NCBI GenBank assembly: GCA_037355855.1
Contig: CM074759.1
Span: forward strand, 4,340,001-4,404,000
DNA: 64,000 nucleotides
Origin: Pseudo-nitzschia pungens
Taxonomy: Eukaryota > Bacillariophyta > Bacillariophyceae > Bacillariales > Bacillariaceae
Direction: 5' to 3'
Shown: positions 1-62,021 of the stretch, piece by piece
Layout: each line of letters begins with the position of its first letter
Numbering within the stretch: position 1 is the stretch's first letter
Position numbers and translations under genes: made by a program
The notes under the pieces: generated by a model
Seen by the model: only the letters and a program-made list of their open reading frames with translations
The model's database searches: none
Told to the model about the DNA's origin: nothing

Positions 1-462
1 GCATTTGCACATCCAAGAGGCGTGTCTGCTGTTGGTCCAACACCCAATTGCCTGCTTTTCAGTTGTTGCTTTGATCTCAACCGGTGCTTCTCCTGCCCCG
101 GCCTTTGCCCTCAACCGCAGCTGGTGTCTCTGCCCTCAGTGCTCCACTTCTGGTACAAGCCTACACATTTTGCAGAGTTCTTCCTCTTCCGCGCGCAGAG
201 TTTTTGGGCTCCAAGTGTGAGACAAATTTTGCTTGTTTTTTAGCAAAAATTTCCAAGTTCCCCGGTTACTTTTGTGGGTGTGCTCCAGTATATTTTTTGG
301 ATCCCCAGGGACCTTTTCCTTGTCCAGACCAAGGTTACCCTTGTTGTTGCTGCTGTACCCTGTTTCCAGAATACACCCATCTGTATATATACATACAGGT
401 TAACACTGACAGCCTACCAGCGCCCGAGCCAACACGCCTATTCAGACGATACTAGCCCCACC

Positions 463-3400
463 ATGCCTCCCCCCCCGCCAGCTTCCAGGCGAAAAAGGCC
501 TCCCTTGGCTGCTACTCCTTCAAACAAACGCGCCTTTATGGGGACTCCTTCCCGCCGACCACCTGCTGGTTCCGTTCTTCAGGCTACTCCCTCTCCCCCT
601 CCCTCTCCCCGTACAGCTAGGGATTCACTCCCTTCTGATGATGATATGTCCTTCACTTCTGCTGTGTCTACCGGTGCACTAGATGATGTTGATATGAGCA
701 CTGAGCAGTCAGGCACTGGGCATTCAGACACAGGGCATTCAGGCAGTGGGCAGTCCGACAGTGGGAAGTCTGACAGTGGGAAGTCCAACAGTGGGAAGTC
801 CAACAGTGGAAAGTCCAACAGTGGGACGTCTACCAGTGGGAAGTCCAACAGTGGAATGTCCAACAGTGAGACGTCTAGGGATGGCCAGCCAGGCTCTGAG
901 CACTCAGACTCTAAGCACCCTCCTTCCAAGGTCTCTCCTTCCAAGTCTAGTCTGAAACAAGCTACTCTTGCATTTCTTTCTGACACACCGTCTGCAGAGC
1001 GACATGCCCTGCGCCAGAAAGCCCTGGCTGCTGCCAACAAAGCTCACTCAGATTCCTTCCTCTGGTGCTTCTACGGTAAGGGGCCTTTTACTGGTCGTGC
1101 TTCCATTCCCACCCCTATCCAAACTCTTCGTAAAACTCCAGCAGGATCCCGGCTATGGACTGGGTGTCCTAGTCCCACTCACTTCTTCAGCAAGAAAGAT
1201 GGGAATGACAAGAAATCCATCCATGATGTCTGTCAGTCTGCCATCCCTCCAGCATATGCTCAAGCTTTTCCCGACAACCCTGAGTGGAGAACTGCTTCTG
1301 TGGAGTCCCTGGTTTCCCTTGCTACTCTCTGCTTTCAAGCCTCTGCAGACTGGACCAAGCAACCTTCCGGCCATGCTCTGAGGAGATGTCTTATTGGTTT
1401 GGCCAAGATGTCACCTGAGTGTTTTGACACCATGTACTGTGAAGGGAACCTTTTGCCCAGCACTGAAGGAAAAGTTTGGTTGGCAGCTAACCAGGTGCTT
1501 GGCTCCCACTGGCATTTCAAGAAGAGACCTCCTACACCTGCGCCAACTGCAGTTGATGATGCTTCCACTTCCAAATCAGTGTCCTTTCTTCCTGGTGGTG
1601 GTGATGCTACTGTCTTGTCCTCTTCTGCTGGGCATTTCCTCCAACGCCGAGGGGTTTGCTCCAGTGATTCTAGAGCTCCAGTGGATGTCACTGCTGGCAC
1701 CAAGTGTTCTCATAGTTCTTATGTCACTCTGTCCCTTCCAAGGTTGATGTCACAACGCCCTGGGGAACTGTATGATGAGCTGCTCAAGTCTCTCAAGGAA
1801 GCTTTGGATCTTCTATGGACTGTTGACAAGCGCCTGGTGTTGTATGTTTTTCCCTCAAGAGCCAGGCTCCACCCCAAGGCCAAGCCTGTTACCAAGTTTT
1901 GGACGACACTTCCTGACAGGAAGACCTTGGAATTGTATGTTGCTCAGCTATGGCTTCGCAGTAGAACTGCTCCTCATCTACGCTTCTTTTTGGGACACAG
2001 TGCTTCCCTGGAGAAACTCTTTTCAGCACAATTGCTCCAGAGGCTCAGAGACCGTGACATGGACCTGAAATATGACCACATACAGGCCCCAGTTATTGAC
2101 ACTCTCCTGAGATCCGTCCCATTGATTGTTGGCTTCTCTCCTTCTGCTTGGCAGGTCATCACTGATGTTGAGATCTTCAAGAAACCTGGTGAATATAGAG
2201 TGGATAAGATGAGGCTTATTCAGCTGATGTCTCCTGAGTTCCAAATCAACAACAAGATGATTGGTAGACGCATTCTTGCCTATGCTGAACGTGCCAATGC
2301 CGTGGCTGTTGATCAACATGGAAGCAGGAAACACCACAAGGCCATCAACACCTGCCTGAACAAGAAGCTCATCTGTGATGTGTTGCGGCAGAAGCGCAGA
2401 TCCGGTGCTGTTGCTATGAATGATGCCAAGGGCTGTTATGATAGAATCTCTCATCCTATTGCAGGTCTCACTCTCCAGAGCTTTGGGGTTCCTGCCCATG
2501 TGTGTGAAGTTCTTCTGTCTACTCTGCAACATGCTAAGCATCACATCAAAACTGGTTTTGGTCGGTCCGGCCCTGTGTATGGTGATGAACCTGTTCCTCT
2601 CAGTGGTTGTGGCCAAGGCAATGGTATTGGTCCAACTCTTTGGGCCTTGGTGTCAACAATTGTCTTCCGAATGATGCAACAGGCTGGGCATGGTGTCCAT
2701 CTTATCACTTCTTTGTCACTGCAACTGGTTTCTCTTGTGGGTTTTGCCTTTGTGGATGACACAGATTTGTTTTGTGCTGGCTCTGATTCCTCAACATCTG
2801 GTGAGGAATTGGCTGTTGATTTTCAGGCAGCTCTTGACCGATGGGCTGGAGGGATTATTGCCACTGGTGGTGCGATTGAACCTGCCAAATCCTTCTGTTA
2901 TTTGATTGATTTCAAATGGAATGGATCCGGTTGGGACTATCGCTCCATTGCTGACATGCCCGGTGACTTCTCTGTTGCTGACAAGAATGGCAATCGAGCT
3001 ACCCTGGATCGTTTTGAAGTTGACCATGCTGACAAGACCCTTGGGGTTTTTATCTCCATGGATGGCAATGAGGAAGCACAGATTGCTCACATGAAGTCCC
3101 AGTCTCAGTCTTTTGGCTCTCAGCTCAAGGCTTCCAAGTGTGAGAAGAGGGCATCCCTCTACACATTCAAGTATTCTTTCATGAAGTCTGTTGAATACCC
3201 CATGCCTGTCACGCAACTTGATGAGGCCACCTGGACGAAGATCATTCACCCAGCACTTGTTCCTGTGCTGAATAAAGCAGGGATGTCACGGACATTTCCT
3301 CGACATGTGTTCTATGGTCCCTCCCTCTATCAAGGCTTTGGATTCATCCATCCCTACCTCCTCCAAGAGTTCAGTCATATTGCCACTCTCTTTCAGGAAT

Positions 3401-5820
3401 CTGTCAGGTCCTCCCAAACTGGTCGGATTCTCAGGCTAACTGCTGAGTCTCTAAGGCTCGAACTTGGCATTCCTCTCCATCTTGGTGTCACCCCATATCA
3501 TCCTTTTGCTTCCTACGTCACTCCTTGCTGGTACAAACATGTGTGGAAGTTTTTCTCTGTTCACCCTGTGAGCTTGTTTGAAGACTTCCCAGATCTTCCC
3601 CTGCTACGTTCCAATGACTGCTATCTCATGCAAGCCTTTGTCAACTCTGGCTTCAGAGGTGCTGACTTGTCCCTCTTGAATCACATGCGCATGTCCCTCA
3701 AGGCTATTTCCCTTGCTGATATTTGTACTCCAGATGGGAAAAGACTCTCTCCCATGGCCTTCCAGCTGACATCCTCCAATCACTTGAGGGATCATCTTGA
3801 CTGGCCTAGATGTCCTCCATCTTGGCCTCCAGCAGCACAGCGCTTATGGACTAAGGCTCTTCAGACCTGTTTTCTTCCCCCCTGTCCACCCCCTGCAGCC
3901 AGGGCACTGGCTCCTTCTTTTCATCTTGGGCATTGGCTCTCTCCCCAGACAGCTTCTCTTTGGCCTTGGTTTTTGTCTCCATCCACCAACAGAATATTCT
4001 TCAAAACTTCTACTGGCTGGATTGTGAGCACCTCCCAGGGCAGGGGCAGATACAGGGTCACTTCTGAACTCATTCCTGACAAACCAGCCTGTGCTGATGT
4101 ACTTGTCTGCCCTGTTATTTGTGGACAAGTTGTACGCGTTGTTGGGTCCTCAGCCTTTGTTTCCGAACCTCCTGACATGGATCCTCTGGTGTACAATCCA
4201 TTTGATTCTCTTCCAGACTCCCCAGTAGATGCCTTTGATGCACTCTGTGAGTCTCCAAGAGTACTTCTCCACAAATATTCCCTACCACAGGATGGCTGTC
4301 AGCACCTTGTTGATGCTATTGAGAGTGGTACTGCCAGTGCTGTATGTGATGGTTCATTTGATCCGGACCTTCTCAGAGGAACTTCTGCTTTCATTCTATC
4401 ACCCAATACCTCCACCAAGAATGCTTCATTGTTTCTCACTGGCTGTAATTTTGTCAGCGGATCCCCTGAGGACCAATCATCCTATAGGAGTGAGCTGGCA
4501 GGCATCCTTGGGGTTCTCACCTGTTGCACTGCTCTGGTGAGTCTTTTTGATATTGCTTCTGGCTCTATCACCATTGCTCTGGATGGTGACACAGCTCTCA
4601 AACAGGCTGAGGGATCATGGCCATTGGTTATTTCCCAGAAGTCTTTTGATTATGTTTATGTCATCAGAAACATGATTTCTGCCCTGCCAATCTCTGTGCA
4701 TTTTCAGTGGGTTCAGGGCCATCAAGCTGGAATCTTTCTTGATTGGTGGGCCCTTCGCAATCATCAGGTTGACAGCATGGCAAAGGCCTTTCTCTCTGTC
4801 CATAGAGCTTCTGCCCATCACTATCCCAGACTTGTGTTTGAGCCTTGGGCATTTTCTCTCAATGGATGCAAGTGTTCAAGGTTTGATCAGAATGCTCTGC
4901 ATGTTGCCATTGCTGGTCCTCCTCTTCTTAAATATTGGCAGACCCACCATGACATCCCCATTCCACAACCTGTTCTGAGTTCCATCCATTGGTGTGCCCA
5001 TCTGTCTGCCTTCAAGCGTCTACCTCCTGGCATGCAAAGGTGGTTTGTCAAGTTTGCTTCTGGATGCATTGGTGTTGGCAACCAACTACTTCACTACCAG
5101 TATCAGGATCACTCCAGGTGTCCCTTGTGTGATGCAGACAACGAGAAGGTTTCTCATGTGCTCTCCTGCAAGGATACTGGGGCTGTCACGCATAGTGTGT
5201 CTGCCTTCACGGGACCACTGCAGAAGAGGCTTGAAGCTGAACAAACTGCTCCATCATTGGCTGTTGCCATTGTGGATCTCCTCACCAGAGTTCGGAAGGG
5301 CCAGAGAATTTATCCATCATCCTACTCACTTGCAATTGCTTCTGCTGTCAGGGCACAGAGGACTATTGGTTGGCACAACTGGCTTCTTGGTAGGTGGTCT
5401 CCTCGCTGGTACCAAATCCAGGCTGACTACTACTCCCACATTGGAAGCAAGCGCTCTCCCAAACGTTGGGCTACAGCTATCATCCATCAGTTCTTTCTTA
5501 CCTCCTGGGATCTTTGGACTTATAGGAATGAACGACTCCATGGTCCTGGGGGTACCCTTGATGCTGAACAACACCAATCTCTTGATGCTTCCATCTCCTC
5601 TGAATTGGCCATTGGTGCAGCTGGTGCACTTCCCCAGTCACACTCCCTGTTACAAACCCCTTTCCACGTCCTACAAGGTTACACCCTGACTGCCAAGCGG
5701 CAGTGGCTTGCAACCATTCACCTTGCCAGGAAGCAGTATGCAGCGCCTGTCCACCCTGAGCAGCCATACCAACAAGAGGCTGCTCTTCTCAGAGCCTGGC
5801 TTACTGGACCTCAGGGTTGA
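463..5820 (+). CDS. Fused LINE ORF1-ORF2 protein: RT, RNase H and zinc finger, no endonuclease
   Basis: An uninterrupted ORF of about 1785 residues from the ATG at 463, which has a good CCACC context; the frame is open further upstream but without a better start. Residues 1 to about 545 match ORF1 of the complete copy (basic proline-rich start, then a Ser/Gly-rich 15-nt minisatellite). From about residue 546 it matches ORF2 from its residue 730 or so onward. RT motifs are visible: DAKGCYD near 653, GCGQGNGIGP after it and FVDD near 763. RNase H residues follow (DGSFD near 1296, SEL near 1343, LDGD near 1373, then a VQGHQ block), and a CX2C-H-X4-C finger near 1553. The whole ORF2 endonuclease and the ORF1 C-terminal third are missing. 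The ORF has no stop, so the fusion is recent or maintained. It could bind template and reverse-transcribe, but target nicking would have to come from elsewhere. Confidence 0.85.
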   Translation: MPPPPPASRRKRPPLAATPSNKRAFMGTPSRRPPAGSVLQATPSPPPSPRTARDSLPSDDDMSFTSAVSTGALDDVDMSTEQSGTGHSDTGHSGSGQSDSGKSDSGKSNSGKSNSGKSNSGTSTSGKSNSGMSNSETSRDGQPGSEHSDSKHPPSKVSPSKSSLKQATLAFLSDTPSAERHALRQKALAAANKAHSDSFLWCFYGKGPFTGRASIPTPIQTLRKTPAGSRLWTGCPSPTHFFSKKDGNDKKSIHDVCQSAIPPAYAQAFPDNPEWRTASVESLVSLATLCFQASADWTKQPSGHALRRCLIGLAKMSPECFDTMYCEGNLLPSTEGKVWLAANQVLGSHWHFKKRPPTPAPTAVDDASTSKSVSFLPGGGDATVLSSSAGHFLQRRGVCSSDSRAPVDVTAGTKCSHSSYVTLSLPRLMSQRPGELYDELLKSLKEALDLLWTVDKRLVLYVFPSRARLHPKAKPVTKFWTTLPDRKTLELYVAQLWLRSRTAPHLRFFLGHSASLEKLFSAQLLQRLRDRDMDLKYDHIQAPVIDTLLRSVPLIVGFSPSAWQVITDVEIFKKPGEYRVDKMRLIQLMSPEFQINNKMIGRRILAYAERANAVAVDQHGSRKHHKAINTCLNKKLICDVLRQKRRSGAVAMNDAKGCYDRISHPIAGLTLQSFGVPAHVCEVLLSTLQHAKHHIKTGFGRSGPVYGDEPVPLSGCGQGNGIGPTLWALVSTIVFRMMQQAGHGVHLITSLSLQLVSLVGFAFVDDTDLFCAGSDSSTSGEELAVDFQAALDRWAGGIIATGGAIEPAKSFCYLIDFKWNGSGWDYRSIADMPGDFSVADKNGNRATLDRFEVDHADKTLGVFISMDGNEEAQIAHMKSQSQSFGSQLKASKCEKRASLYTFKYSFMKSVEYPMPVTQLDEATWTKIIHPALVPVLNKAGMSRTFPRHVFYGPSLYQGFGFIHPYLLQEFSHIATLFQESVRSSQTGRILRLTAESLRLELGIPLHLGVTPYHPFASYVTPCWYKHVWKFFSVHPVSLFEDFPDLPLLRSNDCYLMQAFVNSGFRGADLSLLNHMRMSLKAISLADICTPDGKRLSPMAFQLTSSNHLRDHLDWPRCPPSWPPAAQRLWTKALQTCFLPPCPPPAARALAPSFHLGHWLSPQTASLWPWFLSPSTNRIFFKTSTGWIVSTSQGRGRYRVTSELIPDKPACADVLVCPVICGQVVRVVGSSAFVSEPPDMDPLVYNPFDSLPDSPVDAFDALCESPRVLLHKYSLPQDGCQHLVDAIESGTASAVCDGSFDPDLLRGTSAFILSPNTSTKNASLFLTGCNFVSGSPEDQSSYRSELAGILGVLTCCTALVSLFDIASGSITIALDGDTALKQAEGSWPLVISQKSFDYVYVIRNMISALPISVHFQWVQGHQAGIFLDWWALRNHQVDSMAKAFLSVHRASAHHYPRLVFEPWAFSLNGCKCSRFDQNALHVAIAGPPLLKYWQTHHDIPIPQPVLSSIHWCAHLSAFKRLPPGMQRWFVKFASGCIGVGNQLLHYQYQDHSRCPLCDADNEKVSHVLSCKDTGAVTHSVSAFTGPLQKRLEAEQTAPSLAVAIVDLLTRVRKGQRIYPSSYSLAIASAVRAQRTIGWHNWLLGRWSPRWYQIQADYYSHIGSKRSPKRWATAIIHQFFLTSWDLWTYRNERLHGPGGTLDAEQHQSLDASISSELAIGAAGALPQSHSLLQTPFHVLQGYTLTAKRQWLATIHLARKQYAAPVHPEQPYQQEAALLRAWLTGPQG
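711..890 (+). repeat. 15-bp coding minisatellite in LINE ORF1
   Basis: About ten degenerate copies of a 15-nt unit (core agtgggaagtccaac) encode a Ser/Gly/Asn/Lys-rich repeat. The unit keeps the reading frame. The same tract occurs in the other LINE copy at about 59905-60060 with slightly different units. Confidence 0.85.
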
Positions 5821-6045
5821 TTACACTTTGTACCTTGGTTTTGTCTTCTGTTCCTGCTTCTTCTCCTGTCCCATCCCTTTTGATACTGGATCTTATCCCA
5901 ATATCTTCATTCCCATCTCACTTTCTCTCAAGTCCCTATTTTGTGGGACTTGCTTGTCTTTTTCCCTGCTTGATGTTCAAGGTTTGTTTGAAAATTTGTC
6001 GTTCTGCCACTTGGGGTCCTGACTCTATGATGGAGGCGACGTTAA

Positions 6046-6087
6046 AGTCTGGTTACAGACTGAGTAATTTAGTTTCACCTTTGGTGA
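6046..6087 (+). other. Two 3'-terminal hairpins of the LINE
   Basis: Hairpin 1 (6046-6061) is AGTCTG-GTTA-CAGACT. Hairpin 2 (6075-6087) is TCACC-TTT-GGTGA. An AT-rich tail follows. The same pair stands at the 3' end of the other LINE copy (51252-51293, reverse) and, with a covarying second stem, at the ends of both short elements. LINE RTs are known to recognise 3' RNA structures, so these are candidate RT-binding sites. Confidence 0.75.
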
Positions 6088-6115
6088 TTAAAGTTATTTA
6101 AATACGTATATTATT

Positions 6116-6427
6116 CTTATATTAGCATTCCCAGAATAATAGAACACATATAAAAATTGCGCACCTAATGGAAGAACTACACATGTCTTAACGCACGAGG
6201 CCTATTTTGGAATTTGGAATCTTGTCCAAAGAAACCAAAATTGTCTATTAACCACCAACCCGAACCTCTACGGGTCTCATTTTTGCGCGCCAGCAATCTT
6301 GTGTTCTTTGAAATTTTGTCGACGTTTGCAAATTTGCTATCCTCAACAACAGGCGGGAGTTTGCTCTCCAATAGAAATTTTTTATTTTCTTTTTTCGATC
6401 GAAAACAACAACAACAACAACAACAAC
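6116..6427 (+). other. Leader of the Harbinger-type transposase, no gene seen
   Basis: AT-rich sequence between the LINE tail and the transposase start. It ends in a run of about eight CAA triplets just before the ATG. I could not find a clear terminal inverted repeat or mark the exact element boundary. Confidence 0.4.
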
Positions 6428-16385: not shown

Positions 16386-18919
16386 TAGTGCCTCATGATT
16401 GGATGAATCCTATATTAGGCTGCCCAATGACATGGTCGTCGACTCCGACTCCGGCTCCGGCTCCTTGTAAGGAGTCAGCTTCCGGATGTTCACTGTTTCG
16501 ACCACTGAGGGAGCTTTCTGCAGTTTCACTGTACCATTGTCGTTGACTTGTACAATCGTAAAAGGGCCTGTTCTTCGGGCTGCAGCTTGTCCGGGTCTGG
16601 CTCTTGCAGCCATACCTTATCATTGCTTCTGAAGGTATGTTCTATCCTCTTGGCATTGTCCCAGAGCAGGGCCTTGTTGATTCCCTGTTGTCTGAGCTGT
16701 TGGAGTGCCAATAGATTGGAGGTTAGTGGCAGATTCTATCATCATGTCCCTGTTGAAGACCAGGGATCCTGGAGAGGCTTGTAAGGAGGTGCTGACTGCG
16801 CATCGAGAGGCATGCATGCATGTTGCTAGGGCATTATCCATGAGCTGAGTGGCTCTGGCGTTGGCTTGTGGAGGGTTAACATGCACTAGCAAAACTCGTA
16901 GGATATCAGCCACTGTGTGATGGACGCGTTCACAGATGGCATTGGCCTGTGGATTCTTCACTGTAGTGGGGACTGATTGGACTCCATACTGTTTGAGAGT
17001 GAGTTGGAATTCTGCCCCTAGGAAACTCACCACCATTGTCGTGGATACATCTGTTTGGTCTAGGATATCTTGAGAGCCAGCAGTTCTTGAATTGATCAGA
17101 GACGTGCTGAGAAGATTTGTCTCTGATCCGGATGATTTCAAGAAGGTTGGTAACTGGATCAATGCAGGTGAGGGCCTTGAAGTTGTAGATCTTGTTTTGG
17201 GCTGTAATCTTCCAGGGGCCTATTAAGATCAACATGGACTTCATCGAAGGGAGATATTGGCGCTTCTTTGGGAGGAAGCTTCCCATATTTAGCTTGCCTG
17301 CTCTTGTATTGGATGCCATCATCAGGGCAAATGTAGGACTTGCATAAGTTGGACAGGTTGTCTGCATAGAAGCGAGCTGCGATAGTCTTATATAATCTGG
17401 TGGATCCACAATGACCCAACAGGAGATGGTACCACTTGATGGTATCATTGTGAGAGAACTTGGTATGTAAATTCTCCAATTATCTGGATTGGATTGGTTG
17501 GCATAGCAAAGGAGGTTATTGCCTTGTAATTCTTGGTAAAAGAATGCTTTGGATTGAATCTTGAACTTGATAGTCGGGTCCTTTTGCTGATGGAGGTATA
17601 TCTTGGTATAGTTAACCGGGCATTCCATGTCTTGGTTGTTTGGTAGGTTGACTAGACACTCATTGTTCAGCAAACAGGAGTATAACTCCTGATCTGCGTC
17701 ATTGCATAAGTGCTGGAATAGATTGGGGAACTCTGCTAAAAAACAGTTCTTCATCTTGCTTGGGGACTTCAAGTTTCAAAAAAAATCGATAAGAGTGCCC
17801 TTACCAAGGGCTTCTTTCTTCCCCACAGTGGGTGGATCCATCCTGGGTAGTCTGGAGAAGGCATCAGCAAGAACATTCTTTTTGCCTTCAACATAGGTGA
17901 GGTCAACACCAAATTCTTCTAGGAATAGTCTCCACCGGAGGACTCGTTGGACTGAGAGGGTTCGGAAGGTAAGGTTCTTGTGGTCGGTGTATACGTTGAT
18001 GACGCCACCGAGTAGCATCTTCCGGTACTCTTTGCAGCAGAGTACTATTGCGAGGAGTTGTTCTTTCTCCATAGTGGTATAATTCTTTTGGGCATCAGAT
18101 AGTTTCTTGGACCAATAAGCAATAGGCTTGCCATCTTGGAGGATAGCAGCGCTGAGCTGTAGGTCTGAGGCATCAGTATACAGTTCAAAGGGCTTGTTGA
18201 GGTCTGGATAGGTGTTTAGCGCATCTGCTGCCACCATTGCTTTCATCTCTTGAAAGGCTTTATCTTGAGCAGGTCCCCAAGTGAAGGCAGAAGGAGCTTT
18301 CCTTTGTTTGCCTTTTATGGCGGCTGCTTGGGGAGTCTTCTTGGGCGTACCAGTTATATCAAAGAGAGGAGATAGGACATGGGATCTTCGGGGCCACATG
18401 TCTCTGTAGTATCCCACTGCTCCAAGGAAGGACTTGACTTGAGTGATAGTTCGGGGCCTATCCATGTGTAGAATGGCTTCAATCTTCTTGCGCCATGGCT
18501 TAACTGCTGTAGGCGTCATCCAGTATCCGAGGAAGTCGGTCTCTTGTACAGCCCAGTCACACTTAAGTGGGTTGCATTTAAGTCCATTTTGGTTGAGCCG
18601 GTGTAGGATCTTGTCTATGGTCTTCATGTGGAGATCAAAGGAGCCATTGGTCCAGATACCAATATCATCAATATAAACAGTGCAGTCAGTGTCTTGTAGG
18701 ATATCTTCCATTAGTTGCTGAGCAACATCTGGAGAGACTTTGACACCCATTGGTAGTCTTTGGTATTCATAGCAACCATATGGCGTTACTATGGTACAGA
18801 GTTTCTTGCTTGCGTCGTCCAGTTCAAAGCAATAGTATTGCATGGAGAGGTCAATCTTGGTGAAGTGGGTATACTTGCCTCGCTTATTCATGATATCTTG
18901 TATCCTTGGTATGGGATAT
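16386..18919 (-). pseudogene. Family A integrase, RNase H and RT C-terminal part, frameshifted
   Basis: Similarity to the intact pol at 38939-42826 runs through the whole segment in several frames. Integrase pieces lie at 16410-17479, with frame changes near 16620, 17160 and 17470 and a run of eight A near 17777-17785. From 17786 to 18919 one frame is open and keeps YIDD (near 18660-18680), the RNase H block YTDASD and TDHKNLTF. The RT is cut at IQDIMN..YPIPRIV by the short LINE-derived element starting at 18920; its N-terminal part continues at 20713. Confidence 0.8.
18901..18919. repeat. 19-bp target-site duplication, left copy
   Basis: tatccttggtatgggatat, repeated at 20694-20712 on the far side of short element 1. 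The length is typical of LINE-type target-primed insertion. Confidence 0.9.
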
Positions 18920-20693
18920 ACAATTTGCGCGAAGCGCATTTTGTCCGACGTTCCGATGTTCCAGTACTAAAAATACGTAGATTTCTACACAACTTTACCA
19001 TGCGATATCTCGCTCCCTTTTACACCCCCAATCACAACCCCAGGACCTACATGTATTAACCAAGACCTGCGCTCTTCGTTTCTGCTATCGGTTCAGTTGC
19101 TGTCTGCTTCTTTTGGTTGATTTGGTTGCCAATTCACCACTCGGCTGATCGATCGAGCAGCAGCAACAGCACCAAAACAAAACCGACACATAATTTTCTA
19201 CAGCAATTCCAGTACAGATTCTACCGTACAGCAAAACCGACAACACCCTACGACAGGTACATGTCTATTGCTTCGATCTGTTTCCCAGCTCCATTCCAAG
19301 GCCCCTAAGTATATCTTATACTTAATGTTCTACACTGTTTCCAAGCTGCTTAAGTGATTCTCACTTAATGTTCTACATTCTTCGAAGTTCCTTGCTGAGT
19401 CCTCTTAAGTCTTTTCAAGTCGAAGTTCACGAACAGCCCCTTCCACTGTAGGAACCTTTTTATAAAAAGAAATTCTGTCCTCTGTTTTCAAGTCCATTGC
19501 CCTGCTGGACCCTAAGTGTTTTTCACTTATGGTCCTACTGTTTCTTGACCCAAGCCCCAAAGCCGCTAAGTACAGCTCGCTTCGGGCTCGACTACCTACA
19601 TATACCTCCCAGATGTACTGTATAAATGTCATCTGTTTCCAAGTCTACTGCCCTGATGGACCCTAAGTGTTTTCGCTTATGGTCCTACTGTTTCCTTACC
19701 CAAGCCCCAAAGCCGCTAAGTACAGCTCGCTTAAGGTTCTCCTACCTACATATACCTCTCAGATGCACACTTCAACTGTCATCTGTTTTCAAGACTACTG
19801 CCCTGCTGGACCATAAGTGTTCTCACTTAAGGTCCTACTATTTCCTGACCCAAGCCCCAAAGCCGCTAAGTACAGCTTGCTTAAGGCTCTCCTACCTACA
19901 TAACCCTCTCAGATGCACACTTCAACTGTCATCTGTTTTCAAGTCTATTGCCCTGCCGGACCATAAGTGATATTTCCTTAGGTCCACCTGTTTTTTGACC
20001 CAAGCCCCAAAGTCGCTAAGTATTCTTTACTTAATGCACCACCACCTACATATACCCCTCCAGTTCACAGTACAGCAGAGACCTGTTTTCAAGCCTACAG
20101 CCCTGATGGTCCATAAGTGTTTTTCACTTAGAGCCCCTGTTTCCAAGCTACTACAGGAGAGCAAGTTCAAGTTCGAACAGAAGGCCAGCTGTTACGAATT
20201 TGAATTTGGTAGTAGGCTCCACCACCTCTACGTGTTTCCTACTACAAGTTCGAACAGAAGGACAGCTGTTACGAATTTGGTAGTAGGCTCCGTACTATAT
20301 GTACCATACAGTGGTAAGGAATGTGTTTGGGGCACTCGCATTACTGATGCTGCAATACAGCATGCAGCGACCAGGGACAGTTTTGCTTGGTGTTTTCCCT
20401 TTCACGTTCTTGTTACCCCGTCTCCTGTACGCTTTGCAACAGCTGTGTCTGTTGTGCTCTGGACTGGTTCATTTTTTTCCTGTTTCTTACCAAGGTTCGT
20501 TTGCAAAATAGCCGTCTTTACAACCTGGGGCCTATTCCCCATGGTTGAGGCGGCGCGTCGTTCTACAACTTGGGGCCTAACCTCTCTTCGATTGAGGCGA
20601 CGATAAAGTCTGGTTACAGACTGAGTAGCTTTTAACCACCTTCGGTGGATTTTCCTACTTAAATAAGTATATTATTATTATTATTATTATTAT
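18920..20693 (+). mobile_element. Short non-autonomous LINE derivative 1 (1774 bp)
   Basis: It is flanked by the 19-bp duplication. It starts acaatttgcgcgaagcgc followed by the block attttgtccgacgttccgat, which is also the 5' end of the full LINE at 51221-62002 (reverse). A region resembling the LINE leader (ggttgatttggttgcc, acataattttctacagcaa) follows, then five hairpin monomers of about 150 bp, an internal duplication (two copies of gttcgaacagaagg...gctgttacgaattt near 20170-20290), and a 3' end with the two LINE hairpins (20607-20622, 20636-20648) and an (ATT)n tail. It contains no RT. It most likely moves with the LINE's machinery. Confidence 0.85.
19490..20140 (+). repeat. Five ~150-bp leader monomers with hairpins
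   Basis: Monomer hairpins start at about 19506, 19658, 19808, 19958 and 20108, spaced 150-152 bp. Each unit has a stem such as ggaccctaagtg / cacttatggtcc with a T-rich loop, then tgacccaagccccaaagcc and gctaagtacagctcgctta. Two shorter hairpins of the same type (around 19310 and 19350) precede them. Confidence 0.85.
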
Positions 20694-22226
20694 TATCCTT
20701 GGTATGGGATATGGTCTTCTCTCAAGGAGTTCATTGAGTTCTCTAAAGTCTGATACCCATCGGACCCTGTTGTCTTTCTTTGGTACTATGAAGGTTGGGA
20801 ATGCCCATTCAGCCGGTCCGGTGCATCTCTTGAGTACTCCATCATTACAAAGATTCTGGAGCTCCCTTTTGAATAGGTCTTCTCTCTTGTATGCAACTGG
20901 ATAAGGCTTCTTGTGGATAGGCTTGGATCCGGGCTTCAGTCTGAGAGAGATCTGCTTGTGAGGGTACTTGCCGAGTTCTCCATTGAAGATGTTTGGATAC
21001 TTGTTTAGTATTGCTTGGAACTGCTGTTGCTCTGCTGAGGACATGTGGGACTGTTGTCGTGCGACTGTAGATGGATCTGTTTCTTGGTAGGCTCTGTCTA
21101 GGATCACTTTGGACTTGTATGGATTGGCAAAGGAGGGATCATCAGCAAAGAGTTCAGCATCTTCGAGTTCTTCCATGAGCATGGTGTAGTTGGTCTCATG
21201 ATATAAGGACGTGTCCTTCATAGGAATGGTCCTATCCATCCATTGTACTGCGCCTTCTTTGAATAGGAGATTGATCTGTGCCAGGTGGAGGAAGTCTCTG
21301 CCTAGTATAAGATCATATCTGCAGTCAGGGGAATGGAAGAGCCTTGCCTCTTGTCGGTCGATAGTGTAGTTGCCAAACTCTTGTAGTTTGATGTTCTTCA
21401 TGATGATGTATTCTGTAGTATCGAAGCTGCCATTGGCTGTAGTAGTTAGGACTTGATGCTTGCTTCGTAGTGGCATTGTGCCAAATGGTAGTCCTCTCTT
21501 GTTGATTAAAGTTCCGGAAGATCCACTATCTAGTAGTGCTAGTAGTGGTCTTGCTTTGAGGGGTATGCCTTGTATGTGCTGTATATTGGTTAGAAGAATA
21601 GGAGCCACGTTGCGCGTATTCGGAATAGGAGCCACGTTGCTCTTATTCGATGCCTGTTCTGCTGTATTTTTGGTTGTATTTCCAGCAGTCGACAGCAGCT
21701 TTAAATAATTTTGCTCCAGCGCACCTCCTTTGGTGTAGTCTCTGGATTTTCCGGGGTTGCAATAGAGATTTTTTGCTGTACCGGTAGACCAATTTCTTGC
21801 CAGGGACAAGGTTGGTCCATTTGTTGCTGCTGTCTTAATCGGATCGATAGTGATCGATGATGCGTCTGTACCCTTGGATCGATTCGGATCCACGTTCGAT
21901 ATATCCTGTAGGATGTTCTGAACAATCGTTTTTGCTGCTGTGGCAGGCTTGTCTGAGCGTTCAACAGGAATACTCCATCCTGTAGGTTCCTTCCCCTCTT
22001 TATCTGGGAGATCTCCTCCATGCGTCATCCCAGACAGCAGGGCTGTACTGGCATCCAGGTCCCGGGGAGCTGGAGGCAAGGTGATTGCTGGTTGTAGTGA
22101 AGCCGGGGGCTTCTGTTTTGGAGGCTTGGAGCCTCCGGAGATTCAGGGGAGCCACACAAGTTCCCCATCGATGCTCCTTTCAGTTCTTCCACCATGATTG
22201 GCATGGTATGCTTCGATTGCTGCGTC
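20694..22226 (-). pseudogene. Family A pol start: protease and RT N-terminus, first of two copies
   Basis: Reads in one frame from the codon after the TGA at 22143-22145 through protease (LLDSGSSGTLIN, DLILGRDFL) into RT (AEWAFPTFIVPKKDN, WVSDFRELNELLERRPYPIPRI), where short element 1 cuts it. It is nearly identical to 24601-26133 (constant offset 3907 nt, only a few substitutions seen, such as Ile/Val and Leu/Pro). Upstream of 22226 the homology to gag stops abruptly. Confidence 0.8.
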
Positions 22227-22698
22227 TTGTAGTGGAAGGTGTCTTTGAATCGGTTGACGGACCAGTTTTCGCAAAGGTCGGTGGCTTTAAGAATAACGCC
22301 GGTTTTGCTCGATTTGATCCTGTGGGTGCGTTGGGAGGATTGGTTGGCGGTGGCAAGAAGCTCCCCAAGTTGTTGGGCTATGGGGAGTGGGCGGGTGGAG
22401 GTAGCGTCATCGGGGTTGGTGGTGGCGGTGTTGTTAGATCGTAAACTATGATCGCGGGGTAATTTGCATGGAAAAATAATACGGAATGGCGTCCAGGATC
22501 CTACGGGGGTGGGATCGGAAATCTCAGGGCTAGTGGTGGTGGTGGTGGTGGTGGTGGTCGGGGTGGGTGCATTGGTGTTTGCTTTGGCGGCGTGCGGAGG
22601 ATTAATCGTGGTGGTGGGCGAAGGTTGAGTTTTTGGGCGTGTGGTGGGGGGGGGTATATGCCGTATTGGCTTGAAAATCTGAAGAGTCAATCGTGGTT
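22227..22698 (-). other. Unidentified 472-bp insert with an open frame
   Basis: This segment lies between the truncated first pol copy and short element 2 and matches nothing else in the window. On the minus strand it is open from 22690, encoding a Thr/Pro-rich stretch with nine Thr, then SPEISDPTPVGSWTPF and CENWSVNRFKDTFHY. Its frame is not the gag frame, and the ORF runs on into a non-coding frame of the element. It could be a piece of another gene or retroelement gag brought in by recombination. I cannot name it. Confidence 0.4.
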
Positions 22699-24600
22699 AC
22701 AATTTGCGCGAAGCGCATTTTGTCCGACGTTCCGATGTTCCAGTACTAAAAATACGTAGATTTCTACACAACTTCACCATGCGATATCTCGCTCCCTTTT
22801 ACACCCCCAATCACAACCCCAGGACCTACATGTATTAACCAAGACCTCCGCTCTTCATTTCTGCTCTCAGTTCAGTTGCTTGCTGCTTCGTTTGGTTGCT
22901 TTGGTTGCCAATTCACCACTCAGCCGATCGATCAGAAGCAGCAGCAAACCGACACATAATTTTCTACAGCAATTCCAGTACAGATTCTACCGTACAGCAA
23001 AACCGACAACAATGTATATGTCTACCGTATTGCTTCGATCTGTTTCCCAGCTCCATTCCAAGGCCCTTAAGTATATCTTATACTTAATGTTCTACACTGT
23101 TTCCAAGCTGCTTAAGTGATTCTCACTTAATGTTCTACATTCTTCGAAGTTCCTTACTAAGTCCGTTAAGTCTTTTCAAGTCGAAGTTCACGAACAGCCC
23201 CTTCCACTGTAGGAATATTTCTACACGAAATTCCAGCTGTCATCTGTTTTCAAGTCCATTGCCCTGCTGGACAATAAGTGTTTTCACTTATGGTCCTACT
23301 GTTTCTTGACCCAAGCCCCAAAGCTGCTAAGTACAGCTCGCTTATGGCTCAACTACCTACATATACCTCCCAGATGTACTGTATAAATGTCATCTGTTTC
23401 CAAGTCTACTGCCCTGATGGACCATAAGTGTTTTCGCTTATGATCCTACTGTTTCCTGACCCAAGCCCCAAAGCCACTAAGTACAGTTTGCTTAAGGCTC
23501 CACCGCCTACATATACCTCCCAGATGTACAGTATAAATATCATCTGTTTTCAAGTCTACTGCCCTGCTGGACCATAAGTGTTTTCGCTTATGGTCCTACT
23601 GTTTCCTTACCCAAGCCCCAAAGCCGCTAAGTACAGTTTGCTTAAGGCTCTCCTACCTACATATACCTCTCAGATGCATTCTTCAACTGTCATCTGTTTT
23701 CAAGACTACTGCCCTGCTGGATCATAAGTGTTTTCGCTTAAGGTCCTACTATTTCCTGACCCAAGCCCCAAAGCCGCTAAGTACAGCTTGCTTAAGGCTC
23801 TCCTACCTACATAACCCTCTCAGATGCACACTTCAACTGTCATCTGTTTTCAAGTCTATTGCCCTGCCGGACCATAAGTGATATTTCCTTAGGTCCACCT
23901 GTTTTTTGACCCAAGCCCCAAAGTCGCTAAGTATTCTTTACTTAATGCACCACCACCTACATATACCCCTCCAGTTCACAGTACAGCAGAGACCTGTTTT
24001 CAAGCCTACAGCCCTGATGGTCCATAAGTGTTTTCACTTAGAGCCCCTGTTTCCAAGCTACTACAGGAGAGCAAGTTCAAGTTCGAACAGAAGGCCAGCT
24101 GTTACGAATTTGAATTTGGTAGTAGGCTCCACCACCTCTACGTGTTTCCTACTACAAGTTCGAACAGAAGGACAGCTGTTACGAATTTGGTAGTAGGCTC
24201 CGTACTATATGTACCATACAGTGGTAAGGAATGTGTTTGGGGCACTCGCATTACTGATGCTGCAATACAGCATGCAGCGACCAGGGACAGTTTTGCTTGG
24301 TGTTTTCCCTTTCACGTTCTTGTTACCCCGTCTCCTGTACGCTTTGCAACAGCTGTGTCTGTTGTGCTCTGGACTGGTTCATTTTTTTCCTGTTTCTTAC
24401 CAAGGTTCGTTTGCAAAATAGCCGTCTTTACAACCTGGGGCCTATTCCCCATGGTTGAGGCGGCGCGTCGTTCTACAACTTGGGGCCTAACCTCTCTTCG
24501 ATTGAGGCGACGATAAAGTCTGGTTACAGACTGAGTAGCTTTTAACCACCTTCGGTGGATTTTCCTACTTAAATAAGTATATTATTATTATTATTATTAT
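22699..24600 (+). mobile_element. Short non-autonomous LINE derivative 2 (1902 bp)
   Basis: Same family as short element 1, with the complete 5' end at 22699 and (ATT)n tail ending at 24600. It has six monomers rather than five and many substitutions in the 5' half, while the 3' 700 bp is almost identical to short element 1. Its right flank is the same RT site as short element 1 (24601-24619), but its left flank is unrelated, so it has no target-site duplication. That points to recombination between two short elements. Confidence 0.8.
23240..24050 (+). repeat. Six ~150-bp leader monomers with hairpins
   Basis: Hairpins start at about 23269, 23419, 23569, 23719, 23869 and 24019, a spacing of 150 bp. 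The third has a 12-bp stem (ggaccataagtg against cgcttatggtcc, one G-T pair in RNA) around a TTTT loop. Confidence 0.85.
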
Positions 24601-26049
24601 TATCCTTGGTATGGGATATGGTCTTCTCTCAAGGAGTTCATTGAGTTCTCTAAAGTCTGATACCCATCGGACCCTGTTGTCTTTCTTTGGTACTATGAAG
24701 GTTGGGAATGCCCATTCAGCCGGTCCGGTGCATCTCTTGAGTACTCCATCATTACAAAGATTCTGGAGCTCCCTTTTGAATAGGTCTTCTCTCTTGTATG
24801 CAACTGGATAAGGCTTCTTGTGGATAGGCTTGGATCCGGGCTTCGGTCTGAGAGAGATCTGCTTGTGAGGGTACTTGCCGAGTTCTCCATTGAAGACGTT
24901 TGGATACTTGTTTAGTATTGCTTGGAACTGCTGTTGCTCTGCTGAGGACATGTGGGACTGTTGTCGTGCGACTGTAGATGGATCTGTTTCTTGGTAGGCT
25001 CTGTCTAGGATCACTTTGGACTTGTATGGATTGGCAAAGGAGGGATCATCAGCAAAGAGTTCAGCATCTTCGAGTTCTTCCATGAGCATGGTGTAGTTGG
25101 TCTCATGATATAAGGACGTGTCCTTCATAGGAATGGTCCTATCCATCCATTGTACTGCGCCTTCTTTGAATAGGAGATTGATCTGTGCCAGGTGGAGGAA
25201 GTCTCTGCCTAGTATAAGATCATATCTGCAGTCAGGGGAATGGAAGAGCCTTGCCTCTTGTCGGTCGATAGTGTAGTTGCCAAACTCTTGTAGTTTGATG
25301 TTCTTCATGATGATGTATTCTGTAGTATCGAAGCTGCCATTGGCTGTAGTAGTTAGGACTTGATGCTTGCTTCGTAGTGGCATTGTGCCAAATGGTAGTC
25401 CTCTCTTGTTGATTAAAGTTCCGGAAGATCCACTATCTAGTAGTGCTAGTAGTGGTCTTGCTTTGAGGGGTATGCCTTGTATGTGCTGTATATTGGTTAG
25501 AAGAATAGGAGCCACGTTGCGCGTATTCGGAATAGGAGCCACGTTGCTCTTATTCGATGCCTGTTCTGCTGTATTTTTGGTTGTATTTCCAGCAGTCGAC
25601 AGCAGCTTTAAATAATTTTGCTCCAGCGCACCTCCTTTGGTGTAGTCTCTGGATTTTCCGGGGTTGCAATAGAGATTTTTTGCTGTACCGGTAGACCAAT
25701 TTCTTGCCAGGGACAAGGTTGGTCCATTTGTTGCTGCTGTCTTAATCGGATCGATAGTGATCGATGATGCGTCTGTACCCTTGGATCGATTCGGATCCAC
25801 GTTCGATATATCCTGTAGGATGTTCTGAACAATCGTTTTTGCTGCTGTGGCAGGCTTGTCTGAGCGTTCAACAGGAATACTCCATCCTGTAGGTTCCTTC
25901 CCCTCTTTATCTGGGAGATCTCCTCCATGCGTCATCCCAGACAGCAGGGCTGTACTGGCATCCAGGTCCCGGGGAGCTGGAGGCAAGGTGATTGCTGGTT
26001 GTAGTGAAGCCGGGGGCTTCTGTTTTGGAGGCTTGGAGCCTCCGGAGAT
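24601..26049 (-). pseudogene. Family A pol start: protease and RT N-terminus, second copy
   Basis: Continuous with the gag at 26053-27120 through the in-frame TGA at 26050-26052. Same content as 20694-22142: Ser/Thr-rich N-terminus, protease with LLDSGSSGTLIN, RT to YPIPRI, then the (ATT)n tail of short element 2. The rest of the RT is not downstream in this copy, so no complete pol can be made. Confidence 0.8.
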
Positions 26050-51220: not shown

Positions 51221-51518
51221 AATAATAATATACGTATTTAAATAACTTTAATCACCAAAGGTGAAACTAAATTACTCAGTCTGTAACCAGACTTTAATGT
51301 CGCCTCCATCATAGAGTCAGGACCCCAAGTGGCAGAACGACAAATTTTCAAACAAACCTTGAACATCAAGCAGGGGAAAGGACAAACAAGTCCCACAAAA
51401 GAGGGACTTGAGAGAAAGTGAAATGGGAATGAAGATATTGGGATAAGATCCAGTATCAAAAGGGATGGGACAGGATAAGAAGCAGGAACAGAAGACAAAA
51501 CCAAGGTACAAAGTGTAA

Positions 51519-54500
51519 TCAACCCTGAGGTCCAGTAAGCCAGGCTCTGAGAAGAGCAGCCTCTTGTTGGTATGGCTGCACTGGTGGGACAGGCGCTGCA
51601 TACTGCTTCCTTGCAAGGTGGATGGTTGCAAGCCACTGCCGCTTGGCAGTCAGGGTGTAACCTTGTAGGACGTGGAAAGGGGTTTGTAACAGGGAGTGTG
51701 ACTGGGGAAGTGCACCAGCTGCACCAATTGCCAATTCTGAAGTGATGGAAGCATCAAGAGATTGGTGTTGTTCAGCAGCAAGGGTACCCCCAGGACCATG
51801 GAGTCGTTCATTCCTATAAGTCCAAAGATCCCAGGAGGTAAGAAAGAACTGATGGATGACAGCTGTAGCCCAACGTTTGGGAGAGCGCTTGCTTCCAATG
51901 TGGGAGTAGTAGTCAGTCTGAATTTGGTACCAGCGAGGAGACCACCTACCAAGAAGCCAGTTGTGCCAGCCAATAGTCCTCTGTGCCCTGACAGCAGACG
52001 CAATTGCAAGTGAGTAGGATGATGGATAAATGGTCTGGCCCTTCCGAATTCTGGTGAGAAGATCCACAATGGCAACAACCAAGGATGGATCAGTTTGTTC
52101 AACTTCAAGCCTCTTCTGCAGGGGTCCCTTGAAAGCTGACACACTGTGCTGTACTGCCCCAGTGTCCTTGCAGGAGAGCACATGAGAGACCTTCTCGTTG
52201 TCTGCATCACACAATGGGCACCGGGAGTGATCCTGATACTGGTAGTGAAGTAGTTGGTTGCCAACACCAATGCATCCAGAAGCAAATTTGACAAACCACC
52301 GTTGCATGCCAGGAGGTAATCGCTTGAAGGCAGACAGATGGGCACACCAATGGATGGAACTCAAAACAGGTTGTGGAATGGGAATATCATGGTGGTTCTG
52401 CCAATATTTAAGAAGAGGGGGACCAGAAATGGCAACATGCAGAGCATTCTGATCAAACCTTGAACACTTGCATCCATTGAGAGAAAATGCCCAGGGCTCA
52501 AACACAAGTCTGGGATAGTGATGGGCCGAAGCTCTATGAACAGAGAGAAAGGCCTTTGCCATGCTGTCAACCTGATGATTGCGAAGGGCCCACCAATCAA
52601 GAAAGATTCCAGCTTGATGGCCCTGAACCCACTGAAAGTGCACAGAGATTGGCAGGGCAGAAATCATGTTTCTGATGACATAAACATAATCAAAAGACTT
52701 CTGGGAAATAACCAAAGGCCAAGATCCCTGAGCCTGTTTGAGAGCTGTGTCACCATCCAGAGCAATAGTGATAGAGCCAGAAGCAATATCAAAAAGATTC
52801 ACCAGAGCAGTGCAACAGGTGAGAACTCCAATGATACCCGCCAGTTCACTCCTGTAGGATGACTGATCCTCAGGGGATCCACTGACAAAATTACAGCCAG
52901 TGAGGAACAATGAAGCAGTCTTGGTGGAGGTATTGGGTGACAAAATGAATGCAGAAGTTCCTCTGAGAAGGTCCGGATCAAATGACCCATCACAGACAGC
53001 ACTGGCAATACCACTCTGGATAGCATCAACAAGGTGTTGACAGCCAGCCTGTGGTAGAGAATATTTGTGGAGAAGTACCCTTGGAGACTCACAGAGTGCA
53101 TCAAAGGCATCTACTGGGGAGTCTGGAAGAGAATCATATGGATTGTACTCCAGAGGATCCATGTCAGGAGGTTCGGAAACAAAGGCTGAGGACCCAACCA
53201 CTCGAACAACTTGGCCACAGATAACAGGGCAGACAAGCACATCAGCGCAGGCTGGTTTGTCAGAAAGGATTTCAGCAGTGACCCTGTATCTGCCCCTGCC
53301 CTGGGAGGTGCTCACAGTCCAGCCAGTAGAAGTTTTGAAGAATATTCTGTTGGTGGATGGAGACAAAAACCAAGGCCAAAGAGAAGCTGTCTGGGGAGAG
53401 AGCCAAGGCCCAAGATGAAAAGAAGGAGCTAGTGCCCTGGCTGCAGGGGGTGGACAAGGGGGAAGAAAACAGGTCTGAAGTGCCTTAGTCCAAAAGCGCT
53501 TTGCTGCTGGAGGCCAAGATGGAGGACATCTCGGCCAGTCAAGATGATCCCTCAAGTGATTGGAGGATGTCAGCTGGAAAGCCATGGGAGAGAGTCTCTT
53601 CCCATCTGGAGTACAAATGTCAGCAAGGGAGATAGCCTTGAGTGACATGCGCATGTGATTCAAGAGGGACAAGTCAGCACCTCTGAAGCCAGCGTTGACA
53701 AAGGCTTGCATGAGATAGCAGTCATTGGAACGTAGCAGGGGAAGATCTGGGAAGTCTTCAAACAAGCTCACAGGGTGAACAGAGAAAAACTTCCACACAT
53801 GTTTGTACCAGCAAGGAGTGACGTAGGAAGCAAAAGGATGATATGGTGTGACACCAAGATGGAGAGGAATGCCAAGTTCGAGCCGTAGAGACTCAGCAGT
53901 TAGCCTGAGAATCCTACCAGTTTGGGAGGACCTGACAGATTCCTGAAAGAGGGTGGCAATATGACTGAACTCTTGGAGGAGGTAGGGGTGAATGAAACCA
54001 AAGCCTTGATAGAGGGAAGGACCATAGAATACATGTCTGGGAAATGTCCGTGACATCCCTGCTTTATTCAGCACAGGAACAAGAGCTGGGTGAATTATCT
54101 TAGTCCAAGTGGCTTCATCAAGTTGCGTGACAGGCATGGGGTATTCAACAGACTTCATGAAAGAATACTTGAATGTGTAGAGGGATGCCCTCTTCTCACA
54201 CTTGGAAGCCTTGAGCTGAGAGCCAAAAGACTGAGACTGTGACTTCATGTGAGCAATCTGTGCTTCCTCATTGCCATCCATGGAGATAAAAACCCCAAGG
54301 GTCTTGTCAGCATGGTCAACTTCAAAACGATCCAGGGTAGCGCGATTGCCATTCTTATCAGCAACAGAGAAGTCACCGGGCATGTCAGCAATGGAGCGAT
54401 AGTCCCAACCGGATCCATTCCATTTGAAATCAATCAAATAACAGAAGGATTTGGCAGGTTCAATCGCACCACCAGTGGCAATAATCCCACCAGCCCATCG

Positions 54501-57431: not shown

Positions 57432-57454
57432 GGCTCAAATCACTGACACTAGCA

Positions 57455-60307: not shown

Positions 60308-62002
60308 GGTGGGGCTAGGATCGTCTGAATAGGCGTGTTGGCTCGGGCGCTGGTAGGCTGTCAGTGTTAACCTGTATGGATATATACAGATGGGTGTAGC
60401 CTGGAAACAGGGTACAGCAGCAACAACAAGGGTAACCGTGGTCTGGACAAGGAAAAGGTCCCTGTGGATCCAAAAAATGTACTGGAGCACACCCACAAAA
60501 GTCACCGGGGAACTCAGAAATTTTTGCTAAAAAACGAGCAAAATGTGTCTCACACTTGGAGCACCAAAACTCTGCGCGCGGAAGAGCTCTGCAAATCGTG
60601 TAGGCTTGTACTCTGCAAATCGTGTAGGCTTGTACGACTGGCTTGGAATTTCGAATCAGATATGATTCGAAATGAAATACAGCAGCCCACTAGCTTGAAA
60701 TTTCGAATCAGATATGATTCGAATTGAAATACAGCAGCCCACCGGGAAGCTAGTAGCTTGAAAACAGGGGCTTTAGTAGGAACACTTAGGGACCGGGGAA
60801 TATCAATGGCAGGGCACACTTAAAAGGCTCAGGAGGGAACTTGAAGTTCAAACTCGCGAGTACTTATAAGTGGAAACAGTATCCAGGAGCAATTGGCTTG
60901 AAAACAGGGACCTTGAGCGAGACACTTAGGGACCAGGGAAGCTGCCTGCTTGGAAACAAGGGGAGTAATTACCGGAAGAAACAGTATCCAGGGGCAATTA
61001 GCTTGAAAACAGGTACCTTGAGCGAGACACTTAGGGACCGGTGAAGCTGCTTGCTTGAAAACAGGGGCTTTAGTAGAAACACCTAGGGACCAGGGGGAGG
61101 CTTGTGTCTTGAAAACAGTGTCGAACTTGAAGTTCAAGTTGGGGTTGCTTAATAGCAAAAAGCACTTAGGGATCAGGGAACCCGCGAACACTTAGGGACC
61201 AGAGAAACTGTAGTCTTGGAAACAAGGGGCGATAGTAGCTGTAGTCTTGGAAACAAGAGTGCACTAAGTAGGAGGTACTTAGGGATCGGTTGGTCTTGGC
61301 TTGAAAACAGATGTAGTAGGGGGAGCCTTAAGCGAAAACACTTAGGGACTGGGGGGCTTGGCTAGGAAACAGGGTAGCTCTTAAGTGATTGACACTAGTA
61401 AGAGCAGGGGGCAATTGGCTTGAAAATAAAGGGGAACTGGAAGATATGCTTGCGCGAACTTGCAGATACTTAGGGATCAGCGAGTAGGAACCTTCTAGAA
61501 GGGGAGTGTATATGTGCTCTATCTTGAAGAATGTAGAACGTTAAATGGGTTCGACCTTGAAGAATGTAGAACGTTAAGTGGATATCACTTAAGAGGCTTG
61601 GAAGACTGTATAGCGTTAAATAATAAGGTAGCTTGAAAACAGATCGAAACAAACCAGGCTCGGAGACAAACTGAGTGTGGAGACTAACCGGAGCAGAGCT
61701 GCTGTAGAATTAGTACTGGGCTTGCTGTAGAAATTATGTGTCCTTTTGCTTGTGTTGCTGCCGAAGCGATCGACCGACCGGCAGAGGAAACAAGCAACCA
61801 AAGCAACCAAAGGGAGCAAGGAGCAGCCAAACAAACAGCAGAATCAGACAGGGGAGGTCTCTGTTGATAGGTGTAGTGCTTGGTTTTGTTGTAGGAGCTT
61901 TAGAAGTGAGTGAGATATCAAAGGGGAAAGTTGTGTAGAAATCTACGTGTTTTAAGTACTGGAACATCGGAACGTCGGACAAAATCGCGCGTCGCAAAAT
62001 TG
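60308..62002 (-). promoter_or_regulatory. LINE copy 2 leader with repeated core motif
   Basis: A long non-coding leader that must hold the internal promoter. The core acttaggga(c/t)c recurs about nine times between 60785 and 61475 at irregular spacing (near 60787, 60927, 61028, 61080, 61158, 61189, 61278, 61339, 61469). Read on the coding strand it equals the ggtccctaagtg core of the short elements' monomers. The LINE 5' end (61940-62002) matches the short elements' first 70 bp. Confidence 0.7.
60648..60725. repeat. Two tandem ~52-bp units with strong hairpins in the LINE leader
   Basis: tcgaatcagatatgattcga occurs twice (60651 and 60703), each a stem of 9-11 bp around GATA. A shorter duplication of gcaaatcgtgtaggcttgta lies just left (60593-60634). 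LINE copy 1 lacks this block in positions 1-150. Confidence 0.75.
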
Positions 62003-62021
62003 TGCTTTTTCCGGTAGTAGT
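62003..62021. repeat. 19-bp target-site duplication of LINE copy 2, right copy
   Basis: Identical to 51202-51220. Confidence 0.95.

Follow-up and report, generated by a model that had tools for sequence, protein, structure and literature searches.

In a 64,000-nucleotide stretch of the genome of the diatom Pseudo-nitzschia pungens (contig CM074759.1, positions 4,340,001 to 4,404,000; this whole stretch is called the window below), two short elements, E1 and E2, share both ends with a full-length long interspersed nuclear element (LINE) present in the same window. The two elements very probably belong to a young family of short internally deleted elements (SIDEs) with about 300 copies whose 5' ends are complete. 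In this family the 5' untranslated region (UTR) and the end of the 3' UTR of the LINE have been kept, the LINE open reading frames (ORFs) are gone, one 150-bp unit has been amplified into an array of variable length, and movement is most likely provided in trans by the LINE. An original prediction, made from the letters of the window, had placed the elements at 18920-20693 and 22699-24600 and had described them as having the 5' start and 3' end of the LINE without its ORFs. The coordinates proved correct, and the description was borne out by blastn comparison and by counts across the genome. The features concerned are the following, in window coordinates.

18920..20693, plus strand: E1, a complete short non-autonomous element (very probably a SIDE) within a gypsy-like element, from sequence comparison and its duplication
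18901..18919, plus strand: target-site duplication of E1, 5' copy, 19 bp
20694..20712, plus strand: target-site duplication of E1, 3' copy, 19 bp, its first T ambiguous with the tail
18920..18944, plus strand: predicted 5'-terminal stem-loop of E1, ACAA-UU-UGCGC-GAA-GCGCA-UU-UUGU, from folding and variants
18939..18968, plus strand: 30-nt 5' core TTTTGTCCGACGTTCCGATGTTCCAGTACT, common to E1 and the LINE
19475..20130, plus strand: array in E1 in which a 150-bp unit, related to the LINE 5' UTR, is present 4.4 times
20557..20693, plus strand: 3' end that E1 has in common with the LINE, with a pair of short hairpins and an (ATT)n tail
22699..24600, plus strand: E2, second short element, best read as a recombinant with E1, 5.4 units of 150 bp
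51221..62003, minus strand: full-length LINE, both ORFs open, 19-bp duplication
57455..60505, minus strand: LINE ORF1, 1016 amino acids, no Pfam match above the cut-off
51519..57431, minus strand: LINE ORF2, 1970 amino acids, reverse transcriptase and weak endonuclease match
61704..62003, minus strand: LINE 5' region homologous to E1 1-305 (76%, blastn)
51221..51341, minus strand: 3' region of the LINE, homologous to the last part of E1 and E2 (78%, blastn)

E1 begins with ACAATTTGCGC at 18920, has (ATT)n at its end at 20693, and is bordered on each side by the 19-bp duplication TATCCTTGGTATGGGATAT; as had been claimed, the LINE has a duplication too, likewise of 19 bp. E2 is organised like E1. 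By blastn, the first 305 nt of E1 match the LINE at 76% and its final ~130 nt at 78%, and shorter pieces of the 5' UTR match as well. The shared 5' block of about 70 nt that was originally described is real but was drawn too short: it spans about 300 nt, and beyond it further pieces of the LINE 5' UTR recur inside the short elements in the order that they have in the LINE. The proposal that the 5' part is LINE-derived rather than tRNA-derived also held, in that the head of E1 matches the LINE and no tRNA is found in the region. Rfam gave no match at E≤1 to a tRNA-, 5S- or 7SL-like head, and none at E≤1 to a ribozyme in window 18800-24800 or 60400-62100. Rfam matches to PVT1_5 (in two places), sraL and HOTTIP_2 lay far below gathering scores and are not credible.

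Across the assembly (66.9 Mb, 28 contigs), the 30-nt 5' core occurred 635 times with up to 2 mismatches and a 23-nt 3' motif 971 times with up to 1 mismatch, and neither reversed pattern occurred at all. Earlier family patterns with 2 mismatches overlapped each other (605 and 557 matches), and the families were counted instead with longer patterns allowing up to 2 mismatches, for which all reversed controls were 0. These returned 306 (5') and 347 (3') ends of the short family and, for the LINE, 241 (5') and 580 (3') ends. The resulting 5'-to-3' end ratios are ~0.88 for the short family versus ~0.42 for the LINE, with stringency differing between patterns; the higher ratio would be expected if a 2-kb template is completed more often than an 11-kb one. 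About 300 short copies of ~1.95 kb would amount to an estimated 0.9% or so of the assembly. On contig 1, 99 exact core sites were listed, of which 54 are exactly short-type, 41 exactly LINE-type and 4 neither. With reversed-pattern controls of 0, chance similarity of the ends, including chance sharing with unrelated repeats, is ruled out. No exact match to the 30-nt core was present in the viral_contigs and genome_contigs collections.

The LINE ORFs are absent from the short copies examined. In the part of contig 1 where 3' sites were also listed (30 short-type and 23 LINE-type 5' sites), 23/30 short-type 5' ends reach the 3' motif within 1638-2038 bases; none of the 23 LINE-type sites reaches it below 6884 bases, and 12 do so at 10-13 kb. 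The 23 paired short copies were mostly judged by spacing and ends, with 5 of them read through in a 20-site sample, which took each fifth site from the list of 99 with an exact core. The seven unpaired short-type sites were judged from partial sequence, and at none of them does the 5' UTR run on into ORF1. An antisense LINE 3' end interrupts the element at L109 and L110, and at L112 it is the 5' start of a LINE that does so. At another (L107/L113), a short element within a LINE ORF2 is broken off at nt 327 and LINE sequence resumes at 8355, and at the last three (L106/L114, L108/L115, L111/L116) similarity is lost after ~225-494 nt. The 20-site sample contained 10 short-type and 10 LINE-type loci by first core. 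A recognised 3' end lies within 2.4 kb at 6/10 of the short-type loci, and L048 has a slightly altered one. LINE matches of at least 40 nt inside all 10 short-type loci fall only within LINE 8-1261 or 10671-10792 (the latter unmatched in L057, L059 and L063); ORF1 starts near LINE position 1507, beyond the 5' UTR pieces of the short copies. Matches to ORF2 at these loci belong to target sequence that flanks or interrupts the copies. In keeping with the original prediction, no copy running into LINE ORFs was found at the 7 unpaired and 10 sampled short-type loci. Ordinary 5'-truncated LINE copies are rejected as an explanation, since the short elements have an intact 5' end and their interior does not consist of ORF sequence.

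The insertion signature was compared in 17 short copies (E1, 6 sampled copies and 10 of 18 further short pairs) and 11 LINE copies (the one in the window and 10 of 12 LINE pairs). Target duplications of 17-21 bp were present in both families, in 16/17 and 10/11 copies respectively, the exceptions being the short copy L094 and the LINE copy L068, in which the first bases of the element are missing as well. In 24/26 copies the duplication directly adjoins or overlaps the A of ACAATTT, and the remaining two have 2-3 extra bases; the copies were picked by their 5' core, so this shows a precise start and not how often the start is reached. Tails are (ATT)n or variants and differ in length among the short copies; the 16 short copies with a duplication show 15 different duplication sequences. 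Searching the genome thus yielded what had been anticipated, many short copies with shared 5' starts and duplications of 17-21 bp. Two copies ~38 kb apart on contig 1 (L053 and L100) have the same 19-bp duplication, which suggests a single insertion in a duplicated or repeated target.

The interior of the short elements also contains LINE sequence. In LINE order, the short copies contain LINE 5' UTR pieces 8-312, 399-458, 640-701, 890-959 and 1218-1261, followed by 10671-10792; the series is complete in the fullest cases (L047, L055, L062), with the last two 5' UTR pieces overlapping in the short copy. The 150-bp unit matches LINE 586-701 in the 5' UTR (E 2.9e-9) and has four more LINE 5' UTR matches (E 0.025-0.078), and it gave no match at E≤1 in 20 shuffled LINEs or in the reversed LINE. 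Collinear 5' UTR pieces followed by 3' UTR favour an internal deletion, although matches in the middle are weak and no deletion intermediate of the short lineage was found. Nine short copies are 88.5-99.5% identical to each other and ~74% identical to the LINE 5' region; the short lineage, we infer, diverged from the present LINE long before the copies seen today were dispersed.

Both ends were examined for what the two families have in common. The 5' alignment (12 short and 11 LINE copies) was drawn by the exact core, and its 100% core identity holds by construction. A fair test is offered by the contig-1 sites listed for patterns immediately downstream, whose overlap with the core is limited to its last 8 nt: here the exact 30-nt core is found at 42/47 short and 31/34 LINE sites, and the usual core is therefore identical in both families. 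Identity between families is 90% in alignment columns 55-80, 63-69% in columns 81-230 (versus 90-97% within families) and 82% in columns 291-335. In the 11 columns before the core it averages 25%, and despite this low identity the same terminal 4+5-bp hairpin is predicted in 3/4 variants folded. A DPE-like (downstream promoter element-like) CGTT at +30 to +33 is a weak lead and a candidate only (compare an excerpt of PMC4748587). The 3' alignment was keyed on an exact 21-nt motif, within which identity is likewise by construction. This motif is present in 5/5 LINE loci chosen by ORF2 protein (L041-L045) and in 29/30 loci chosen by E1 similarity, the latter overlapping and partly the same copies. 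In the second 3' hairpin, pairing is kept through a U-A to C-G change, and the 3' folds have z-scores of -2.69 and -2.30.

The presumed partner has the equipment of an autonomous element. LINE ORF2 matches reverse transcriptase at E 7.2e-12, and its N-terminal part has a weak endonuclease match (E 0.0013). A stretch after the reverse transcriptase is, as we take it from its motifs, RNase H-like; Pfam returned no family there even at E≤10. ORF2 is open in 24/24 copies scored at ≥99% identity, these being the best 24 of 1076 candidates, and the LINE looks recently active.

As judged from these sequence comparisons, it is most likely that this LINE mobilises the short family in trans. A related LINE lineage could instead be the provider, with the LINE of the window only a cousin, and the 24 ungapped columns of the 5' alignment that hold fixed family differences, like the ~74% identity of the 5' region, would fit such an arrangement; no survey of every other LINE family was made. 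However, only 4 of the 99 listed contig-1 core sites are neither exactly short-type nor exactly LINE-type, ORF2 of the present LINE is open in the 24 copies scored, and duplication lengths and the 3' motif agree between the two families, all of which makes another provider unlikely. It is more improbable still, to the point of being hard to defend, that the short elements arise over and over as fresh internal deletions of current LINE copies and have no lineage of their own. Internally deleted LINE copies do exist, namely one at window 1-6119 that has lost 3.4 kb and L054, which lacks LINE 1291-1869, but the short copies share fixed differences from the LINE together with the amplified 150-bp unit, and nine of them are far closer to each other (88.5-99.5%) than to the LINE 5' region (~74%). 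The 10 sites of LINE type in the 20-site sample included no complete short copy with LINE-type 5' sequence.

Spread mainly as DNA, through segmental duplication or ectopic recombination, has the least to recommend it and is extremely improbable, even though recombination between copies has probably left traces. The 3' flanks of E1 and E2 are the same gypsy-like sequence, 99.87% identical over 1533 bp, and the last 726 aligned bases of the two elements are identical; over the first 1200 columns of their alignment, 4-5% of gap-free positions differ. No separate target duplication accompanies E2, whose 5' flank is unrelated to that of E1 and gave no match to another gypsy-like copy within the window. 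The most fitting reading of E2 is a recombinant sharing the 3' junction of E1, not a second insertion. Similarly, the short element L094/L095 (G000:C1:4154414-4156646), the one without a duplication, has LINE flanks from two places, ORF2 on its 5' side and 3' UTR on its 3' side, and probably reflects ectopic recombination between copies. The duplication shared by L053 and L100 would also suit a DNA route. Against these cases stand the 15 different duplications among 16 short copies and the tails of varying length, and DNA spread is disfavoured as the main route because the duplications are so varied.

Returning to mobilisation in trans by the LINE, several observations weigh against this reading or against parts of it. 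At ~74% identity in the 5' region, the short family does not have to descend directly from the LINE of the window. For the middle of E1 (1205-1640), LINE matches are weak, at E 0.036 in the 3' UTR and 0.39 in the 5' UTR; the best shuffled match has E 9.4, and a LINE origin of this part is no more than suggested. The longest ATG-initiated ORFs of nine short copies encode 82-216 amino acids and lie in or just after the array, and those of E1 (190) and L065 (216) exceed all 60 shuffles; those of the other 7 copies do not. A frame may stay open across the array because 150 bp is a multiple of three, Pfam returned nothing at E≤1 for the longest listed E1 ORF (203 amino acids, TTG start), and we read these ORFs as non-coding. 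With regard to the 5' hairpin, the fourth variant folded, a LINE variant one base from a short variant, does not form it, the z-scores of +0.01 to -1.83 across the variants are not exceptional, and the change between families can be explained as a one-base shift (of a GC palindrome, for the main LINE variant). Covariation would say little about this hairpin, given the MAFFT gaps there and the fact that a one-base shift also explains the change.

On the preferred account, transcription of a short copy would begin at the terminal ACAATTT, under the control of the nearby internal core, and the shared 5' block may accordingly be viewed as a putative promoter. The LINE ORF2 protein, perhaps together with the ORF1 protein, would act in trans on the 3' hairpins and the (AUU)n tail. 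Target-primed reverse transcription would then copy the RNA to its 5' end, leaving the 17-21 bp duplications that are observed. A more far-reaching proposal is that the ACAATTT hairpin and the 30-nt core form an undescribed LINE 5' module, unrelated to the HDV-like (hepatitis delta virus-like) ribozymes of R2 and L1Tc, that would serve as an internal start at the DNA level and in recognition or protection of the 5' end at the RNA level, so that copying would reach the very first base. If so, the LINE machinery needs both ends in cis, and for that reason the parasite could lose neither of them. We regard this proposal as doubtful, though worth entertaining, and the module, with a function that is so far conjectural, is the most interesting point remaining.

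SINEs (short interspersed nuclear elements) are non-autonomous and take their 3' end from a partner LINE, with heads mostly from small RNA genes. The short family is likewise non-autonomous with a LINE 3' end, but its head is the LINE 5' UTR and not tRNA-, 5S- or 7SL-derived. It has instead what characterises a SIDE: a LINE-homologous 5' end and 3' UTR end, no partner ORFs, partner-like duplications, and an autonomous partner in the genome. The term comes from R2 and R2/R1 derivatives in Drosophila (excerpt of PMC3414825), and non-LTR (long terminal repeat) SIDEs are called rare in the available parts of PMC6740152 and PMC3414825, the former listing as hosts fruit flies, Anopheles (Ag-Sponge) and Trypanosoma brucei (RIME). 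Like the short family, the R2 SIDEs are described in the excerpt of PMC3414825 as having 5' and 3' ends of a non-LTR element with the ORFs removed, as being thought to use the partner's machinery, and as old lineages with recent activity. They are also described there as carrying an HDV-like ribozyme and inserting into ribosomal DNA, whereas the short family has no ribozyme match and its examined copies lie at varied sites; it further differs in its 17-21 bp duplications, its ~300 5' ends and the large part of the 5' UTR that is kept.

Another abundant and dispersed SIDE, active at the same time as its LINE, is Persaeus of Lepidoptera, whose partner is Zenon (CR1) and whose identity to the LINE is 71.0-98.9% at the 5' end and 60.4-99.2% at the 3' end (excerpt of PMC6740152). 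Persaeus belongs to a different LINE and host, and its central region has no clear LINE relation according to the same excerpt; the interior of the short family, in contrast, is largely LINE 5' UTR with one unit amplified. In trypanosomatids, RIME/ingi and NARTc/L1Tc resemble the present pair in having a conserved 5' block common with the autonomous LINE, and their Pr77 is reported as both promoter and HDV-like ribozyme (excerpt of PMC4748587). The predicted 5' fold of the short family is a simple terminal hairpin, and no such ribozyme was matched in Rfam at E≤1. No earlier report of a diatom SIDE was among the literature matches listed, from a collection that lacked most subscription journals, and repeat libraries were not searched. 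The short family adds one more case to a kind of genomic parasite already known but seldom reported; here the host is neither an animal nor a trypanosome, and what is parasitised is itself a selfish element. Hundreds of young copies beside an apparently recently active LINE mark its possible needs in cis, i.e. the 30-nt core, perhaps the 5' hairpin, and the 3' motif with its hairpins, and the minimal substrate of a protist LINE becomes directly testable.

The window contains one more member of the LINE family.

1..6119, plus strand: further LINE copy of the same family, with 3.4 kb of its interior deleted and a 5' end that probably lies upstream of the window

The deletion runs from LINE 3344 to 6769, the aligned pieces overlapping by 7 nt, and leaves one frame of 1848 amino acids that leads from ORF1 into the reverse transcriptase. 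A LINE-type 5' core lies upstream of this copy, at G000:C2:4338163, and the copy probably has a full 5' end beyond the window edge. Such a copy might resemble a possible SIDE precursor. In the LINE copies L046, L050, L052, L061 and L064, variable tandem arrays lie between the 5' UTR and ORF1 and are long open in several frames. A search with the protein encoded at window 29224-29979 brought up three relatives, one of them labelled as from Pseudo-nitzschia pungens (46% identity), in keeping with a diatom host. Positions 9058-9557 of the window are 500 N bases.

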